Notes under the pieces: model-generated
What the model saw: only the letters and a program-made list of their open reading frames with translations
Database searches by the model: none
What the model was told of the DNA's origin: nothing
Shown: positions 27,299-34,957 of the stretch, piece after piece
Layout of the letters: each line of letters begins with the position of its first letter
Position numbering within the stretch: the stretch's first letter is position 1
Position numbers and translations under genes: made by a program
NCBI RefSeq assembly: GCF_900155595.1
Contig: NZ_FTPB01000004.1
Coordinates: 682,001 to 746,000 of the forward strand
From: Actinomyces mediterranea
GTDB taxonomy: Bacteria; Actinomycetota; Actinomycetes; Actinomycetales; Actinomycetaceae
Reading direction: 5' to 3'
DNA: 64,000 nucleotides

Positions 27299-28366
27299 TC
27301 AGGAGGGGACGCCGAAGACTTCCTTCGTCCTTGTCCCATGGCGTTCGATCCCGATGACTGAGGGCGAGGCCGATGTGTGGACGACGTGCGCGATCAGCAG
27401 GTCCGTGGTGCCCAGCCAGGGGCTCGACGAGGGGAAGAGCCTGGTGAGAGTCGACGGCGCCGCATCGCGCAGTGGCTGCAGGAGGAGCGGGATCGTGGGG
27501 CGGTGGACGCAGATCGCCGTCGGCCCGGAGGCTTGGGCGACCAGGCCGCTCATGACTCGGGAGGCCGCTTCCGGATTCGCCTTCGTGGCATCCTCGGTGA
27601 GGTCGTCCTCGTAGAGGATCGGTGCGTCGGAGAGACCCGCCCATGGTGCGAGAGTCTGGCGGCACCTCGTCCACGGCGAGGAGACCGCCGATTCGATGCC
27701 GAATGCGGAAAGGATGTCGATGAGGTCGAGGCTCTGGCGCGCTCCGAGGCGCGTGAGGGGGCGCCTCGCCTCCCCGCCGAACCAGGAGGATCGGGACATC
27801 GCCTTCGCATGGCGGACGACGGCGAGCGTGGTCGTCACGAGGAGCCCATCGCGGGCTCGGGTCACCACTTCGGACAGCAGACGACGATCGCCTCTGCGCG
27901 TCAGCATCTGTTCGGCCCGGGAGGGCTTGGCCCACCTGGTGAGGTCGATTTCAGCGGTGGGCGCGGTGTGGACGGGAAGCCTGGTTCGCTCGACGGCGCC
28001 CCCCGATGAACGAGGATCGGATGAGACGAGGGTGCCGATCCAGTAGTAGACCTCTTTCGTCTGCCCGGATCCGAGACGATAGCGCTGCGTCGTCAGCGGC
28101 GCCCCGAGGACGACGACCAGCCCCGTCTCCTCCTCCACTTCACGGACTGCTGCGTTGACGATCGACTCACTGCGCTCGGCCTTGCCCTTGGGCCATGACC
28201 AGTCCCTGTATCGGGGCCGGTGCACCATGAGGACTTCAATGTCATGGGGGTCGATGGATTCGCCCGGGATGGGGGTGCGCTCGGGATCCGTGAATCGCCA
28301 CACCACCGCGCCCGCTGCGCGCACGAGGCGCGAAGGAATCGGAGCTGGACGGATGAGACGCGGCAC
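27299..28366 (-). CDS. NUDIX hydrolase fused to histidine phosphatase (MutT1-like)
   Basis: The protein has 355 residues. The N-terminal domain has a full Nudix box, from GKAERSESIV to REVEEETGL (GX5EX7REUXEEXGU). The C-terminal half is a phosphoglycerate-mutase-type phosphatase, starting with LAVVRHAKAM (RHG-like catalytic His) and with a second His in TAICVHRP. This two-domain layout matches mycobacterial MutT1, which hydrolyses 8-oxo-dGTP and diadenosine polyphosphates. The start is a GTG with TAGGCT six bases upstream, probably leaderless. Confidence 0.88.
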   Translation of the reverse strand: MPRLIRPAPIPSRLVRAAGAVVWRFTDPERTPIPGESIDPHDIEVLMVHRPRYRDWSWPKGKAERSESIVNAAVREVEEETGLVVVLGAPLTTQRYRLGSGQTKEVYYWIGTLVSSDPRSSGGAVERTRLPVHTAPTAEIDLTRWAKPSRAEQMLTRRGDRRLLSEVVTRARDGLLVTTTLAVVRHAKAMSRSSWFGGEARRPLTRLGARQSLDLIDILSAFGIESAVSSPWTRCRQTLAPWAGLSDAPILYEDDLTEDATKANPEAASRVMSGLVAQASGPTAICVHRPTIPLLLQPLRDAAPSTLTRLFPSSSPWLGTTDLLIAHVVHTSASPSVIGIERHGTRTKEVFGVPS

Positions 28367-28495
28367 CCTCCAAGCCTACCGGCACCGACGCCCCCGCGCG
28401 TGTCGGCGGACCAGGGATGGCGTTTGACCGCATTCAATCCGATGATTCGCCGTTGTTCATGCCCGCGGACGACGCTGGCGCGTTATCATTGATTC

Positions 28496-28575
28496 TGACT
28501 GATTCTCAGTAAGTTCCGACTCGTTAGCGGAACTGAATGCTCCACCGGGCCACTCGATTGAGTGGCCCGGTTTTC
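28496..28575 (+). ncRNA. tracrRNA of the type II-C CRISPR system
   Basis: The first 15 bases (TGACTGATTCTCAGT) match the end of the CRISPR repeat at 13 of 15 positions. The two differences are C-to-T and keep G-U pairs with crRNA. Next come AAGTTCC...GGAAC (stem), GAATGCTCC, and a perfect 12-bp stem ACCGGGCCACTC/GAGTGGCCCGGT with a GATT loop and TTTT, a Rho-independent terminator. The order and several words (CAGTAAG, CTCGTT, TGCTCC) match the published Corynebacterium diphtheriae Cas9 tracrRNA as I remember it. TATCAT at 28484-28489 fits as -10 box, placing the start at the anti-repeat. The gene lies 24 bases before cas9 on the same strand. Confidence 0.88.
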
Positions 28576-28599
28576 GCCCAAATGTCCGAGTAATGCGCC

Positions 28600-31500
28600 A
28601 TGATTGGAAACATGACCATCAACGACGACAACAATCCTCATCCCATCTATCGAATCGGCATTGATGTCGGAACACACTCAACAGGCTTCTGCGCGGTAGA
28701 AGTGGATGACTCGGGCTCTCCCCTCCGCCTCCTCAACTCGGTGGTGTTCATGCACGATTCTGGAATTGATCCAGCCGGAGCGAAAAAGGCCGAGACCCGG
28801 AAGGCTGTGTCTGGTGTTGCTCGGCGAACACGACGCCTCTACAGGAGTCGGCGTACTCGTCTTTTCGAACTCGATAAGACGCTGAGACGGCTCGAGTACC
28901 CGTTGATCGATCTTGAGTCCATTGAGGATCCCCGTGCGCCGTGGCATGTGCGATCCCGACTCACCCACGAGTTCATCTCCGACGAGGTCGAACGCCGTGA
29001 AGCGATCTCGATCGCTCTGCGTCACATTGCCCGCCACCGCGGATGGCGCAACCCTTATTCGAAGGTCGAATCCCTCCTCATCCCAACAGAGCCGTCCGAA
29101 TTCCTTACTGGGTTGAATCAACGCATCGGCGAGAAGCTCGGTGAGAATCTCGACCCCGACCTCACACCGGGAGAGCTCATGTCGCGGCTCTTCGTCGCCT
29201 TCCCGACTGCTCGTATCCGCGGCCCTAAAGGCATCTTGAACGGGAAACTTCACCAGTCCGACAATGCACAGGAAATTCGTCTCATCGCCGAGATGCAGGA
29301 CATCGATGATGAGGAACGGGATCTGCTCATTCGAACAGTCTTCGATGCGAAGTCTCCTCGAGGCAGTGCACAAGGCCTTCGAGGAAAAGATGCTCTGCCC
29401 GGCCAGCACCACCACGTTCGCGCAGAGAAAGCGCATCCTGTCTTCCAACTCTTCCGAATCGTCGGTGTCTTGACGAATCTTCGAATCAGAGAAGGCAGAG
29501 AAGAGCGAAGACTGACGCCTGATGAGCTCCGAGGTCTCGTCGACTATTTAGAGGTGACGGGCGCTGGTGACACTCCCACGTGGGGCGATATTGCTGACAA
29601 TCTCGGTGTTGAGCGTTCAGCACTGCGGGGCACGGCTTCACCCGGTCCTGATGGTTCTCCTGCGCTGTCGTCTCCCCCGATTAACGTCACTGATAGAGCC
29701 ATCGCGGCATCGAAGATTCCGTGGCTCGTCGACTGGTGGACGAGTGCATCTTCCGACGAGCGGGGTCGCATGGTTGACGCATTGTCGAATAGCGGCGGTT
29801 CAGAGGATACCCCCGATGCTGATGACGAGATCGCTGAGATCCTCGAACAGGCGTCTGAGCAGGATCAGGAGAAGCTCGATGCAATCTCCCTGCCGGCGGG
29901 TCGAGCCGCCTATTCGCTCGACTCCATGAGGCGTCTGAGTGAATACATGTTGGCGAATGGTGCTGACCTTCATGAGGCCCGCAAAGCCGTGTTCAACGTT
30001 GACGACTCATGGAGACCGCCAGCCGATCCAATCGGAGCCCCCGTTGGCAATCCTGCGGTTGACCGTGTGACGAAACAGGTCGCTCGATGGCTGTCCGGCG
30101 TCGAACGCCAGTGGGGACCTCCTCAGGCGATCAACATCGAGCACGTGCGGCATGCGTTGGGAAGCGAACGCGCTGTTCGAGAAGCAATGCGTGACAACGA
30201 AACACGTTTCAAGCGCAACCAGCGCATGTTCACGAAGATGCATGAGCAGCTCGGCCTGTCGGGTCGGCCCAGGCGCAGCGACCTCATCCGCTATCAGGCT
30301 CTGCAGCGTCAGAACGGCCAATGCCTGTACTGCGGCTGCATGATCACATTCGATACTGCGGAGATGGATCATATCGTTCCCCGCGCCGGATCGGGTTCGA
30401 CGAACACGCGGATGAACCTCGCTGCAGTGTGCCGCACATGCAACCACACGAAGAGCAAAATGCCCTTCGCCGTGTGGGCGGCGACTGATTCCCGTCCTGA
30501 GGTTTCCCTGAAGGAGGCTGAGCAGCGCGTGCGTCACTGGCTCCGCGACGAGGGAGTATCAGCTCGGGATCACAAGAGATTCCAGAATGAGGTCATTCGT
30601 CGTTTAAGGACGACGACACAGGATGAGGAGTTCGACGGCAGGTCACTCGAGTCGGTCGCATGGATGGCCAATGAACTGCGCAATCGTATCGACCAGCACT
30701 TCAACGCACATGATCGGCTCGTCGATGTTGCTGTTTACCGGGGTTCTCTCACTGCCGAGGCCCGTAAGGCAAGCGGTTTAGAGCGGAGGGTCAACCTCAT
30801 TGGTACAGGAGGCAAGACGCGATTCGATCGGCGACATCATGCGATGGATGCTTTGACCATCGCTCTCATGAACCGTTCTGTTGCTGCGTCCCTCGCATTG
30901 CGAACGAACCTCCGCGATTCTCAGCGGATCACGCGCGAGCCTGAGACGTGGAAGTCCTTCACGGGCACCACTGAGGAGGCTCGCCGACAGTGGTCACTAT
31001 GGGATGACGCAATGCGACGCGCATCTGACCTGTTCAACATCGCATTGACTGAAGATGCGATCCCCATTGTGGAGAACATTCGTCTTCGTCAGGGCAGTGG
31101 GGCAATGCACGAAGCGACGATCTCTCCGTTAACCCGCGTCGCACTCAGCTCTGCTATGCCCGTTGATCTCGTCGACAGAGCATCGACACCCGCTTTGTGG
31201 ACAGCCCTCACTCGTCTGCCCGACTTCGATGATCAGCAGGGACTACCCGCTGACGAGAACCGGGAAATCGTCGTTAATGGGCGCCACATTCGTGCGAGCG
31301 AGGACGTCTCATTCTTCGACACGGATGCCGCATGCATTGCTGTGCGGGGTGGGTATGCGCAGTTGGGAGCCTCTATCCATCATGCGCGTATCTTCCGGAT
31401 CGAGGGGAAGAAGACGACATATGCGATGGTCCGCGTTTACCAAGTCGATTTGGTGAAGCATCGCAATGAGGATCTTTTCACCGTCGAGCTTTCGCCTTCC

Positions 31501-31911
31501 ACGATCTCGATTCGCACGGCCGAACAGAAGATTCGGAGGGCGCTTGAAGATGGAACAGCCACCCAAATCGGTTGGCTCGTCGAAGGCGATGAACTCAGGA
31601 TTGATTCGTCGGCGTTCACCTCTGCGGCAATCGGCGAGTTCTTCTCCGCATACCCGATGTGCCAGAGTTGGCGAGTGGCGGGTTTTCCAGGTCTGGCGAG
31701 GCTTCGACTGCGTCCACTCGCCCTCGCCTCAGAGGGGATGCCGGACGACGCGAGCGCGGGGATCAAAGAGATCATCGCAGGCCAGGGGTGGCGCCCAGCC
31801 GTCAATGCTGTCCTCAAGTCAGGGAGCGTTCATGTTGTTCGCAGAGATGCTCTGGGACGCCCCCGCTATCGGCGCACGTCGACTCTTCCGTTGTCACAAC
31901 CATTGATTTGA
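28600..31911 (+). CDS. cas9: CRISPR-associated endonuclease Cas9, type II-C
   Basis: The protein has 1103 residues, about the size of Actinomyces naeslundii Cas9, which it resembles throughout. RuvC residues: D22 (IGIDVGTHS), E514 (NIEHVRH), H747 and D750 (DRRHHAMDA). HNH residues: H591 in MDHIVPRAG and N606. Four cysteines (C575, C578, C611, C614) around the HNH form a zinc site. The Arg-rich bridge helix is VARRTRRLYRSRRTRLFEL near residues 70-90. The REC region reads IARHRGWRNPYSKVESLL. All catalytic residues are present, so it should be an active RNA-guided double-strand nuclease. An in-frame ATG at 28612 is an alternative start, and no clear ribosome site decides. It is followed directly by cas1. 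Confidence 0.97.
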   Translation: MIGNMTINDDNNPHPIYRIGIDVGTHSTGFCAVEVDDSGSPLRLLNSVVFMHDSGIDPAGAKKAETRKAVSGVARRTRRLYRSRRTRLFELDKTLRRLEYPLIDLESIEDPRAPWHVRSRLTHEFISDEVERREAISIALRHIARHRGWRNPYSKVESLLIPTEPSEFLTGLNQRIGEKLGENLDPDLTPGELMSRLFVAFPTARIRGPKGILNGKLHQSDNAQEIRLIAEMQDIDDEERDLLIRTVFDAKSPRGSAQGLRGKDALPGQHHHVRAEKAHPVFQLFRIVGVLTNLRIREGREERRLTPDELRGLVDYLEVTGAGDTPTWGDIADNLGVERSALRGTASPGPDGSPALSSPPINVTDRAIAASKIPWLVDWWTSASSDERGRMVDALSNSGGSEDTPDADDEIAEILEQASEQDQEKLDAISLPAGRAAYSLDSMRRLSEYMLANGADLHEARKAVFNVDDSWRPPADPIGAPVGNPAVDRVTKQVARWLSGVERQWGPPQAINIEHVRHALGSERAVREAMRDNETRFKRNQRMFTKMHEQLGLSGRPRRSDLIRYQALQRQNGQCLYCGCMITFDTAEMDHIVPRAGSGSTNTRMNLAAVCRTCNHTKSKMPFAVWAATDSRPEVSLKEAEQRVRHWLRDEGVSARDHKRFQNEVIRRLRTTTQDEEFDGRSLESVAWMANELRNRIDQHFNAHDRLVDVAVYRGSLTAEARKASGLERRVNLIGTGGKTRFDRRHHAMDALTIALMNRSVAASLALRTNLRDSQRITREPETWKSFTGTTEEARRQWSLWDDAMRRASDLFNIALTEDAIPIVENIRLRQGSGAMHEATISPLTRVALSSAMPVDLVDRASTPALWTALTRLPDFDDQQGLPADENREIVVNGRHIRASEDVSFFDTDAACIAVRGGYAQLGASIHHARIFRIEGKKTTYAMVRVYQVDLVKHRNEDLFTVELSPSTISIRTAEQKIRRALEDGTATQIGWLVEGDELRIDSSAFTSAAIGEFFSAYPMCQSWRVAGFPGLARLRLRPLALASEGMPDDASAGIKEIIAGQGWRPAVNAVLKSGSVHVVRRDALGRPRYRRTSTLPLSQPLI

Positions 31912-31922
31912 GGCGATTGGCG

Positions 31923-32834
31923 TTGGCTTCTCAGTGGCGCATCGTAGACTTCTCGAACTTTGAGGGCGGCCTTAAGTCTGTTCGCGGAGGCATCGAGATC
32001 ATTCCTGACTCCGGCGATCCAATGGTGGTACCCGTGGCCGATCTCGCGGTTGTACTCATCGGGATGCACGTGTCATTGAGTGCGGCCGTTCTACATCGGC
32101 TGTGCGAAGCGGATGTCGCCGTCTTGTTTTGCGACTGGCGCGGCATTCCTGAGGGCGGTGCGTATTCGTGGTCAGATCATGGACGTGTAGGGGCGCGGCA
32201 TCGGGCACAAGCCGAGCTCACACTTCCCCGGAAGAAGAATGCTTGGGGGCGTATCGTTCGTGCGAAAGTCCTTGGACAGGCTGAGGTGCTCAAGCGCGCT
32301 GAGATTCCCGGCGGTGGAGAGCTACTCGCCCTCGCTGATGAAGTGCGCTCGGGGGATCCGATGAACATTGAGGCTCAGGCTGCTCGCCTGTACTGGCAGC
32401 GCTTCTTCGGGCGGAAAGACAAGCGTCTTCCCGGATCGGGCGAGTTGCTCGGGCACAATCCGTGTCTGGACTATGGATACACCGTTCTTCGCGGACTGGT
32501 CATGCGCTCGGTGATTGCAACGGGGCTCAATGGTTCGCTCGGCATCTTCCACCGTGGACGCAGCAACGTCTTCGCACTTGCAGACGATCTGATCGAGCCA
32601 TTCCGCCCGTGCATCGACGATGCGGTGTTGGGACTCCCATCGGATGCCTCGCCGTCAGATCCCGACGTCAAACGTGCACTTGTCGCTGCAGCAACCCAGC
32701 GTTTCAACGAAGACGGGCTGCATGTCCCCGCTGTGGTCGAGTCGTTCGCCCAACAATTCGGGCGCTACGTCGAGGGTGACATTCAACGCCTCGACCCGCC
32801 TGTGTGGCGCGGCCCCTTCATCATGGAGTCGTAA
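31923..32834 (+). CDS. cas1: CRISPR-associated integrase Cas1
   Basis: The protein has about 303 residues and begins LASQWRIVDFSNFEGGLKSVRGGI. Conserved metal-binding residues are visible: Glu in NIEAQAARLYWQRFFG, His in SLGIFHRGRSNVFALADD, and Asp/Glu in that segment and LIEPFRP. With Cas2 it integrates new spacers. No ATG is available. TTG at 31923 was chosen because GAGG lies nine bases upstream. TTG at 31908 (overlapping the cas9 stop) and at 31917 are alternatives. Confidence 0.93.
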   Translation: MASQWRIVDFSNFEGGLKSVRGGIEIIPDSGDPMVVPVADLAVVLIGMHVSLSAAVLHRLCEADVAVLFCDWRGIPEGGAYSWSDHGRVGARHRAQAELTLPRKKNAWGRIVRAKVLGQAEVLKRAEIPGGGELLALADEVRSGDPMNIEAQAARLYWQRFFGRKDKRLPGSGELLGHNPCLDYGYTVLRGLVMRSVIATGLNGSLGIFHRGRSNVFALADDLIEPFRPCIDDAVLGLPSDASPSDPDVKRALVAAATQRFNEDGLHVPAVVESFAQQFGRYVEGDIQRLDPPVWRGPFIMES

Positions 32835-32838
32835 GACG

Positions 32839-33159
32839 ATGGCGGACGACGCGATGTGGTGCTTGGTGATGTTCGACTTACCGGTTGAAACGAAGACTCA
32901 ACGTCGCGAAGCGACCAGGTTTCGCCAGTCACTATTGGACTGGGGCTTCTCCATGGTTCAGTTCTCCGTATACGTCAAGTATTGGCCGACGGGCGGTCAA
33001 GACGCCGCGACCATCTCCGCCATCAAGCGATGGCTTCCGCCTGGAGGACAGGTACGGGTCCTCGCCCTGACAGACCGACAGTGGGCGACGGGGCTTCGTT
33101 TTGACAACGCGAAGCCCCAATCAACGGAGCCGAAGCCCGAACAGTTGATGATTTTCTAA
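32839..33159 (+). CDS. cas2: CRISPR-associated protein Cas2
   Basis: The protein has 106 residues. The ferredoxin-like N terminus AMWCLVMFDLPVETKTQRREATRFRQSLLDWGFSMVQFSVYVKY is typical of type II Cas2. It starts four bases after the cas1 stop. It is the last cas gene: there is no csn2 and no cas4, which together with the Cas9 type defines subtype II-C. Confidence 0.93.
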   Translation: MADDAMWCLVMFDLPVETKTQRREATRFRQSLLDWGFSMVQFSVYVKYWPTGGQDAATISAIKRWLPPGGQVRVLALTDRQWATGLRFDNAKPQSTEPKPEQLMIF

Positions 33160-33209
33160 CCCCGGACCGCTCAAAACCGTTGAAATCCTGCGGAAAACCC
33201 TTCCCTCGC

Positions 33210-33885
33210 CAAGTTTATCAGAGGGAAGGGTGACTGATTCCCAGCATTCGCCGAAGACTTTGACCTGGAAGCACAAGTTTATCAGAGGGAAGGGTGACTG
33301 ATTCCCAGCTATCCAAGGTGAGGTGTACGTCCTCACCCAAGTTTATCAGAGGGAAGGGTGACTGATTCCCAGCCATCGAATTGTGCGCCTACACGCACTG
33401 CCAAGTTTATCAGAGGGAAGGGTGACTGATTCCCAGCCAGCCTGAGCCTCATGGTTGTCGCTGTTCAAGTTTATCAGAGGGAAGGGTGACTGATTCCCAG
33501 CGACTGGTCAATTTCCAGACCGAGGAAATCAAGTTTATCAGAGGGAAGGGTGACTGATTCCCAGCGTTCGATTGACGTCCACGATTGTAGTCCCAAGTTT
33601 ATCAGAGGGAAGGGTGACTGATTCCCAGCTATGTCAGTGGCGCTGGGCGCGGCTTCGCAAGTTTATCAGAGGGAAGGGTGACTGATTCCCAGCCCGCCTG
33701 GCGTGGGGGGCCGATTCCGATCAAGTTTATCAGAGGGAAGGGTGACTGATTCCCAGCTCATCCCGAATGTCGGTGCCTCGACCATCAAGTTTATCAGAGG
33801 GAAGGGTGACTGATTCCCAGCGCGTTACACAACCCCCACATTTGTGCGCCAAGTTTATCAGAGGGAATTAGCAACAAATCCAAAC
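33210..33885 (-). CRISPR. CRISPR array: ten exact 36-bp repeats plus one degenerate repeat, ten 28-bp spacers
   Basis: On the plus strand each repeat begins CAAGTTTATCAGAGGG and ends GACTGATTCCCAGC. Repeats start at 33210, 33274, 33338 and so on every 64 bases to 33786, all identical. An eleventh copy at 33850 keeps only its first 18 bases. All ten spacers are 28 bases. Pairing with the tracrRNA shows that mature crRNA derives from the minus strand, where the repeat begins GCTGGGAATCAGTC. In that sense each repeat ends with TGATAAACT, an extended -10 element, so each spacer may have its own promoter. The degenerate end is distal to cas2, so new spacers are probably added at the cas2 side. Confidence 0.97.
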
Positions 33886-33960
33886 AGCATATTCAACACT
33901 TCCAATATCGTGGTCACGACTACCAGAATAAATGACGATCAATCTTAATCCCCGTTCTTG

Positions 33961-34377
33961 ACCTTCACTCTGATAATGGGGTTGTGCTCACGACGCGCAT
34001 CGACCCCTTATCACCATTGGCCTGCAGGAAGCGGTGCTGAAACAACGGAAGTTATTCGAGAGGGGAACACCAGATCGCAGTTCGTGTTCTTCTCTCAGTT
34101 TGCCGCGCAGGCAGGATGAAGATTGGACTCTGGTTACTTCTTTCCTAGCGCACTGGGACGCGATGAATTCGTCACCGCCCGTTTCTACAGCCAGGCAACC
34201 GGCAGTAATCAGCGCTTGGTCGAAGTGTTGCGGCATGTCATCACTCCATCGTCAGCGATTATGCGACTCCCCTCTTCGTCGCGAGAATTCAGCGACATAA
34301 TCGCCGGAGTCCAACGAGTCGTTGAAACCCAGTTAGCTGTCAGCGCGCCCGGAGTTGCGAGGCCGATCGGCGCGTGA
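33961..34377 (+). pseudogene. Decayed coding sequence after the CRISPR array, unidentified
   Basis: One frame reads like protein from about 33961 to 34377 but has an in-frame TGA at 34117-34119. Before it comes TTEVIREGNTRSQFVFFSQF, after it SGYFFPSALGRDEFVTARFY and REFSDIIAGVQRVVETQL. No start with a ribosome site is visible and no family is recognised. The rest of 33886-34630 holds nothing I can support. A reading as fortuitous open frame cannot be excluded. Confidence 0.3.
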
Positions 34378-34630
34378 GGACTCGAGCATCAATTGCTGTA
34401 GCCTTGTTCGAATGAACGCACCTGATGGCACAGGACGGCAACCCGCAGGTATTCAGGGCGAACCGACGATTTTCCACCGGTGCCCCAGCATCATGACTAC
34501 CGCATTGCGGAATCGGAAGGGATTGAGATCCGGGAACAATCAGGGGGAATCCTCACTGCGCCGGGCACGCGTTGATGCTTGAATCAAAGACGGCGCTGAA
34601 CCTGCGCCACACCACCCCCAAGGAGCAGCC

Positions 34631-34957
34631 ATGACCACCGAGAACCCGAACCCCTCCTTCTCCGAACGTATCGACGTTGCCGGCGACCAAGTCGTTGCAG
34701 CAGTCAAGCAGCTCCTCAAGGACGGCTCCGTACGCCGGATCATCCTGCGCGACGACAATGGGCGCGAATTGTTCTCCGTCCCCATGAATGTCGGTGCGGC
34801 GGTCGGCGGCCTCGCCGTCCTCGCGGCGCCCACACTCGCAGCGGTCGGAGCGATCACCGCCCTCGTCACGAAAGTCACCATCGACATCGAGCGCACGGAC
34901 ATCACCCCTGAGGCCCCGGAGGTCGTCGATATAGAGCCCGACTCCCCCGCCGAGTGA
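34631..34957 (+). CDS. DUF4342 family protein
   Basis: The protein has 108 residues. The core VVAAVKQLLKDGSVRRIILRDDNGRELFSVPMNVGAAVG followed by a hydrophobic Ala/Leu/Val segment and TKVTIDIER is the DUF4342 pattern. The hydrophobic part (about residues 55-80) may associate with the membrane. The acidic C terminus is Pro/Glu-rich. AAGGAG precedes the ATG. Function unknown. Confidence 0.85.
   Translation: MTTENPNPSFSERIDVAGDQVVAAVKQLLKDGSVRRIILRDDNGRELFSVPMNVGAAVGGLAVLAAPTLAAVGAITALVTKVTIDIERTDITPEAPEVVDIEPDSPAE

Follow-up and report, generated by a model that had tools for sequence, protein, structure and literature searches.

The CRISPR array of the window (the whole 64,000-nt stretch of DNA analysed here) carries an extended -10 element, TGATAAACT, in every repeat, and it is highly probable that each of these elements starts transcription within the spacer that follows. 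Actual initiation is what we infer from the sequence pattern, its conservation by position, its spacing, and the spacing of -10 elements elsewhere in the genome. Transcription would start 6 to 7 nt downstream of the box, at about spacer nt 5 to 6. Each RNA would then begin with a guide of 24 to 23 nt and continue into the next repeat, whose first 14 nt would pair with the tracrRNA. In addition, the newest repeat and the adjoining leader together could form a hairpin, and this possible hybrid stop at the growing end of the array is a new lead.

The locus is a type II-C CRISPR-Cas9 system of an actinobacterium, in the family of Actinomyces. The genes cas9, cas1, and cas2 lie on the plus strand, with the tracrRNA just upstream of cas9 and the array past cas2, after a gap of 50 nt (Table 1). 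The three cas assignments were made with NCBIfam profiles, all over their cut-offs. Type II-C is indicated by a cas9-cas1-cas2 locus without csn2 or cas4, by an anti-repeat upstream of cas9 with 14 pairs to the array, and by an array convergent with the cas genes. A genome search for cas4 gave matches only below cut-off, all outside the window; the search for csn2 gave zero matches in the genome, but its control was also unmatched anywhere, so this result holds for the locus alone. RNase III is encoded in the genome. The best structural relative of the window's Cas9 is PDB 4ogc, aligned over residues 17-1099 of 1103, which we take to be the Cas9 of Actinomyces naeslundii; that structure is uninformative on the crRNA start. 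An Rfam scan of 28000-34600 returned a single match, under its family's threshold, and a protospacer search (for strand and PAM) left the array unmatched in 50,697 phage and 72,556 plasmid records.

Table 1. Features of the CRISPR-Cas9 locus in window coordinates; promoter elements, hairpin arms, and the tracrRNA start are predictions.
Feature	Position	Strand	Basis or remark
tracrRNA -10 hexamer TATCAT, 7 nt before anti-repeat	28484..28489	+	
tracrRNA: anti-repeat 28497-28510, nexus, terminator hairpin; predicted start at anti-repeat	28497..28577	+	
cas9, 1103 aa	28600..31911	+	TIGR01865 182 bits, cut-off 100; best PDB match 4ogc, 1048 bits
cas1	31908..32834	+	TIGR03639 212 bits, cut-off 120
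cas2	32839..33159	+	TIGR01573 57.9 bits, cut-off 24.5
T-run after hybrid hairpin	33194..33196	-	Sequence; T-run tracks stem end across loci
Leader arm GAGGGAAGGGT of hybrid hairpin, 11 Watson-Crick pairs with repeat nt 15-25	33197..33207	-	
CRISPR array: ten intact repeats, ten 28-nt spacers, degenerate 5' repeat	33210..33885	-	
Extended -10 TGATAAACT of newest repeat, pointing into leader	33212..33220	-	
Repeat arm ACCCTTCCCTC of hybrid hairpin (newest repeat nt 15-25)	33221..33231	-	
Extended -10 for spacer 33246-33273	33276..33284	-	
Extended -10 for spacer 33310-33337	33340..33348	-	
Extended -10 for spacer 33374-33401	33404..33412	-	
Extended -10 for spacer 33438-33465	33468..33476	-	
Extended -10 for spacer 33502-33529	33532..33540	-	
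Extended -10 for spacer 33566-33593	33596..33604	-	
Extended -10 for spacer 33630-33657	33660..33668	-	
Extended -10 for spacer 33694-33721	33724..33732	-	
Extended -10 for spacer 33758-33785	33788..33796	-	
Extended -10 for oldest spacer 33822-33849, retained in degenerate repeat	33852..33860	-	
Eroded tracrRNA-pairing half of 5'-terminal repeat	33868..33885	-	11 mismatches, all within first 18 nt

The array is the sole one of its kind in the genome. Its ten identical 36-nt repeats begin at 33210+64i (i = 0-9) and are separated by 28-nt spacers. On the minus strand the repeat reads GCTGGGAATCAGTC...TGATAAACTTG and is composed of GCTGGGAATCAGTC-ACCCTTCCCTC-TGATAAACT-TG, and the extended -10 stops 2 nt short of the spacer in every copy, just where a first-pass annotation of this DNA had placed it. 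The same annotation held that only minus-strand repeats pair with the tracrRNA, and this is borne out by an unbroken run of 14 nt, against a longest run of 7 for the plus-strand repeat. It also counted ten boxes and ten starts. Ten boxes do face spacers, but the total is eleven, and the box of the newest repeat, nearest cas2, faces the flank. The eleventh unit, at 33850-33885 (the 5' end in the minus sense), is degenerate, with its 3' half, including TGATAAACT, intact.

We compared the window with actinobacterial relatives. A Cas9 search found the gene in 39 of 213 family genomes, of which 38 were used, window included; one genome with Cas9 in pieces (G558) was left out. The named loci are the best 80 of 107 relatives by Cas9 search and span Actinomyces, Arcanobacterium, Corynebacterium, Bifidobacterium, Gardnerella, Propionibacteriaceae, and others. 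We kept 81 non-redundant II-C arrays at 80 loci, with 70 distinct repeats; repeat edges were placed by hand at three loci (L092, L108, L109). One genome (L046) bears, besides the usual system, a distant second Cas9 (33% identity) with another repeat type, and this second system was excluded from the array counts. As outgroups we used type II arrays on plasmid records, found via Cas1, for which nine of 14 matches were examined and the array sense was chosen from the look of the repeat, without a tracrRNA. Across the comparative set, 78 of the 81 arrays run opposite to cas9; only three (L050, L051, L118) share its strand.

All 70 distinct repeats have TANNNT 1 to 2 nt from the repeat end, and 66 have TG ahead of the box, as TGNTANNNT. 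Letter-shuffled repeats have TANNNT at this place in 4.6% of cases and TGNTANNNT in 0.28%. Since the relatives share descent, a count of changes on a tree is the fairer comparison. On a Cas9 tree (FastTree, 80 loci; motif-anchored alignment), the fewest changes needed are zero at T-12, A-11, and T-7, one at G-14, and four at T-15. The free positions -13, -10, -9, and -8 require nine, nineteen, six, and three, the tail columns nine and fifteen, and the columns of the repeat middle 5 to 26. Choices of columns with as few changes amount to 1 in 165 for three columns and 2 in 462 for five. Dropping the anchor displaces four repeats by 1 nt, which brings T-12, A-11, and T-7 to two changes apiece, still the lowest of the last 13 columns. 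Gardnerella repeats have the box as TGATATAAT. A scan of 1,587 internal repeats found mutations without pattern and was uninformative.

What could conserve the 3' end of the repeat other than a promoter? Pairing does not explain it, since the tracrRNA pairs with repeat nt 1-14 only. A different account, which we hold to be improbable, is that one long precursor begins before the oldest repeat and is processed by RNase III together with the tracrRNA, and that the repeat 3' end is conserved as the part read by the integrase Cas1-Cas2 at the acquisition end. The conserved repeat end does face the acquisition side, and position -8 is C in 75 of 80 loci, more than a -10 box calls for; a further constraint, for which integration is one candidate, is therefore likely. 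Against this account, the invariant columns are exactly T-12, A-11, and T-7, with free positions between them. Nor was a two-box promoter found in 33000-34650, a point that weighs little, as 0.8 would be expected by chance and other promoter types exist.

Outside the actinobacteria, the outgroup repeats carry TACAAT in Pasteurella (only two copies), Azospirillum, and Ilyobacter, TAGACT in Limnohabitans, TATGCT in Pigmentibacter, TAGGTT in Tistrella, and TATAAT in Subdoligranulum. Two Bacteroidota type II loci (L178, L180) have no TANNNT at the repeat end. Promoters of Bacteroidota differ from those of other phyla, and the missing box is in line with this. II-C repeats of Flavobacterium columnare, in the available text of the source, likewise have no box (PMC8092290), which agrees with our two Bacteroidota loci.

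The spacing of the box can be compared with that of promoters elsewhere in the window's genome. In 864 kb of this genome, with 3,141 candidate start codons, TANNNT lies 6 and 7 nt before the codon in 51 and 36 cases, against 3 to 21 at each other distance from 0 to 44 nt. We read this peak as the mark of leaderless genes. The genome's own distance from box to first base is thus 6 to 7 nt, which predicts starts at spacer nt 5 to 6 and guides of 24 to 23 nt. Across the comparative set, the end of the box lies 30 nt from the next repeat in 1,338 of 1,666 units and 29 nt in another 276; with 6 to 7 nt to the start, this spacing fits guides of about 24 nt. The outgroups, with 36-nt repeats and a period of 65 to 67, arrive at about 30 nt from box to repeat by a different split. 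Both comparison and the genome's own -10 spacing therefore support the earlier proposal of starts 6 to 7 bases past the box and guides of 23 to 24 nt. The guide length to expect in this array would be 24 to 23 nt of the 28-nt spacer.

Other details of the box and the start fit less closely. The hexamer TAAACT occurs in 0 of the 87 genomic hexamers at the diagnostic distance, so it is not favoured there, and TG precedes only 2 of the 87; by this genome's standard, the window's box is passable, not strong. A purine is the usual first base of transcripts. The proposed start 4 to 6 bases into the spacer coincides with a purine at nt 5 or 6 in seven of the ten spacers, but not in the other three, and across 1,600 spacers of the comparative set purines are not enriched at nt 5-8. 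For comparison, sigma-A promoters of Corynebacterium diphtheriae have TAgaaT, a spacing of 6 to 9 nt, and 91% purine starts (PMC5784534); the main text of that transcription start study, as available, makes no mention of CRISPR.

The anti-repeat at 28497-28510 pairs unbroken with nt 1-14 of the minus-strand repeat, and the predicted tracrRNA folds at -39.5 kcal/mol (z -6.0). Among 63 candidates at most 700 nt upstream of cas9 (a stray one at L022 was excluded), 52 have TANNNT 5 to 9 nt before the anti-repeat; six other windows of 5 nt each give 1 to 7. The eleven loci without it include six of Corynebacterium and one of Mycobacteriaceae, and in these seven the anti-repeat looks longer. The tracrRNA very probably starts at its anti-repeat, as judged from this pattern. 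In the window its duplex with the repeat would then be only about 14 bp, with the -10 box outside it.

This short duplex bears on how the RNAs are matured. RNase III cleavage of a long precursor would find the enzyme encoded in the genome, and preliminary small-RNA data from B. bombi had crRNA boundaries that were read as RNase III sites (Briner et al., PMC4521832); the predicted substrate, however, is a duplex of only 14 bp. A related possibility adds to internal initiation rather than replacing it, and we entertain it tentatively, somewhat short of an even chance: starts within spacers, 3' ends cut by RNase III, and read-through from upstream. This is how Campylobacter jejuni works, where RNase III still makes the crRNA 3' end (PMC3656092), and the enzyme is again at hand. 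The tracrRNA complementarity in C. jejuni is 24 nt (PMC4607530), though, and the 14 bp predicted in the window would probably make a poorer substrate. The first-pass suggestion of guides made without any processing is well supported, by comparison, for the 5' end, but it overreaches for the RNA as a whole, given the RNase III-made 3' end in C. jejuni.

Initiation in each repeat is also consistent with the two ends of the array. The last repeat departs from the consensus in only three of 81 arrays, by one mismatch each, and is identical to it in the other 78. The first repeat is identical in only 27 of the 70 readable 5' ends (arrays with cut or N-bearing ends were excluded from the end counts, leaving 70 usable of 81), and in 24 of the 70 it has four or more mismatches. 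In these 24 degenerate repeats the mismatches fall mostly in the tracrRNA-pairing part (143/336) and the middle (46/266). The TG (4/48), T-12, A-11, and T-7 (5/72), the free hexamer positions (9/72), and the tail (5/47) are much less affected. TANNNT is retained in 21 of the 24, as in the window, and lost in three. Such retention speaks against a single long precursor, as old-end repeats are unneeded for integration at the other end. The asymmetry fits with the array growing on the side of cas2, which has been described for II-C (PMC12638026), and with a kept promoter, so that the degenerate repeat would hold just the half needed for starting the oldest guide. Wear from the outer side would fit as well, giving a similar pattern in the 5' repeat, and key and free positions differ little.

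A few old ends stand apart. The outermost repeats without a box are those at the sense 5' ends of L081, L022, and L062. In L081 the second repeat has a damaged handle and a kept box; with the outermost box lost and the next handle damaged, the intervening spacer looks non-functional for both reasons. In L050 and L051 the array is flipped relative to the cas genes (about 14534-17514 in L050), yet there too the degeneration is at the sense 5' end.

Much of this scheme has precedents in other bacteria. To our knowledge, the starts of such a per-repeat scheme have been mapped only in Campylobacter and Neisseria. Work by Zhang et al. in 2013 is said to have described processing-independent crRNAs in Neisseria meningitidis, with a promoter per repeat and guides of about 24 nt; its spacers are reportedly 30 nt and its box TACAAT, versus 28 nt and TAAACT in the window. 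In C. jejuni, crRNA starts were mapped at spacer nt 5 (Dugar et al. 2013, PMC3656092), so that starts are measured there and inferred in the window, and the box ends at the repeat end instead of 2 nt before it. Pearson et al. (2015, PMC4607530) predicted -10 boxes in 58 II-C systems across phyla, with Acidothermus among the Actinobacteria, and in the available text report them absent in II-A. Their systems share with the window the predicted box, the degenerate proximal repeat, and the convergent array. The Acidothermus box was called displaced by a few nucleotides in the same work; in our actinobacterial set, a 2-nt shift of the box is offset by spacers 2 nt shorter, which keeps the distance of 30 nt. 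A survey of over 650 II-C systems found that mutations of the old-end repeat lie mostly within the first 15 nt and suggested promoter retention (Feussner et al. 2025, PMC12080349). Among the literature matches listed, there were no mapped starts for an actinobacterial II-C array. The suggestion that actinobacterial II-C arrays share the scheme thus gains comparative support for the 5' ends, but it is not new, having been predicted by Pearson et al. (2015). In all, the original observation is confirmed, and its reading of the 5' end is probably right, though already predicted. What our analysis adds is a comparative test of each repeat position within a phylum from which II-C Cas9 structures have been solved.

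An array with these promoters fires toward its own cas operon. A simple terminator scan of the plus strand called no terminator in the gap between cas2 and the array (33160-33209), so read-through from the cas genes would yield transcripts complementary to the crRNAs, among them near-copies of the tracrRNA anti-repeat. In the other direction, the sense strand at the newest end reads ACCCTTCCCTC-TGATAAACTTGGC-GAGGGAAGGGT-TTT, a hairpin of 11 bp (-20.3 kcal/mol, z -3.0) with TTT directly after it. A standard terminator scan with a loop limit of 8 leaves it uncalled; its 13-nt loop is long. Taking the evidence below together, we lean slightly toward this hybrid of newest repeat and leader being a transcription terminator. 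Each insertion would set a fresh repeat beside the leader and so rebuild the stop at the end of the array, while older repeats, away from the leader, would be read through. Array transcripts would stop ahead of cas2, with lengths that begin at about 76 nt and rise in steps of 64 nt; only the newest guide would have a short transcript, of about 76 nt. If true, a self-renewing stop would explain how the array avoids antisense transcription of the cas operon, and it would make leader function in II-C testable.

The hairpin recurs across the set. The leader copy inverts the fast-evolving middle of the repeat, starting about where the tracrRNA-pairing handle stops, often with a T-run next to it. 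The longest Watson-Crick stem has a mean length of 9.12 bp over the 69 distinct repeats whose leader was usable, versus 5.34 with leaders permuted (maximum 6.09; 0/10,000), and in the 5' flank it is about 4.8 (59 loci). Local alignment scores of at least 7 are found for 51 of 69 native pairs versus 17-28 in each of 20 swaps. In 18 Bifidobacteriaceae (excluding L121, a near-duplicate of L103, and L113, with a 37-nt repeat), a 14-pair dyad in one ungapped leader frame has double changes in 8 of 14 pairs. Its covariation score is 0.337, against 0.166 shuffled (0/500) and 0.07-0.16 for slid versions, over which it is favoured by having been picked after viewing the alignment. The count of further pair types in this covariation is not above that of shuffles, 71 of 500 of which reach it.

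Does the inverted copy act in RNA or in DNA? The main rival to a terminator, which we find a good deal less likely, is that Cas1-Cas2 uses the copy beside the newest repeat as a DNA half-site during integration. The axis of the Bifidobacteriaceae dyad is the repeat-leader junction itself, as a half-site would have it. The stems also lack RNA-like tolerance of wobble: G-U and A-C mismatches both number 14, so selection at the RNA level is not supported. Against a half-site, loop length differs between clades, from 4 to more than 40 nt, and Ts gather where the stem ends: in 39 loci with stems of at least 8, the T fraction of nt 1-6 past the stem is 0.457, versus 0.314 with stem ends shuffled (0/5,000). 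A result against a terminator is that within 8 nt of the stem TTTT occurs in only 11 of the 39 and TTT in 21. A quite unlikely third origin is neutral: the copy would be a snap-back product left by integration or repair and renewed now and then. The stems are near-perfect as such a product would be, with 658 of 697 aligned columns Watson-Crick (3 gap columns not counted); the pair-by-pair double changes and covariation in Bifidobacteriaceae argue against it.

In scores for termination itself, hybrid hairpins with a T-run reach -9 kcal/mol or better in 35 of 69 native pairs and in 23-30 per leader swap, a weak contrast that tells against a terminator. An energy-based terminator score picks 39 of 69 loci on the sense strand versus 14 on the other, but the stretches searched on the two strands differed. 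The box-bearing arrays of other phyla speak for a terminator over a half-site, as four or five of the seven have a hairpin and T-run of the leader's own. By eye, these are clear in Pasteurella, Limnohabitans, Pigmentibacter, and Subdoligranulum, weaker in Ilyobacter, and not visible in the leaders of Azospirillum and Tistrella.

Among the matches listed, the literature does not report a hairpin at the newest repeat. The terminator hairpins of Feussner et al. (2025) lie upstream of the oldest repeat, unlike the hybrid hairpin, which lies downstream of the newest. II-A and Cas13 arrays likewise have a hairpin between leader and adjoining repeat (PMC13187072). There it blocks an extra crRNA from the first repeat, whereas that of the window comes after the last repeat, with a T-run behind it. 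The leaders of L081, L022, L012, L016, and L126 hold long self-contained palindromes without an evident T-run, and such leaders count against the terminator reading. In the two flipped arrays, L050 and L051, the hairpin stays with the array.
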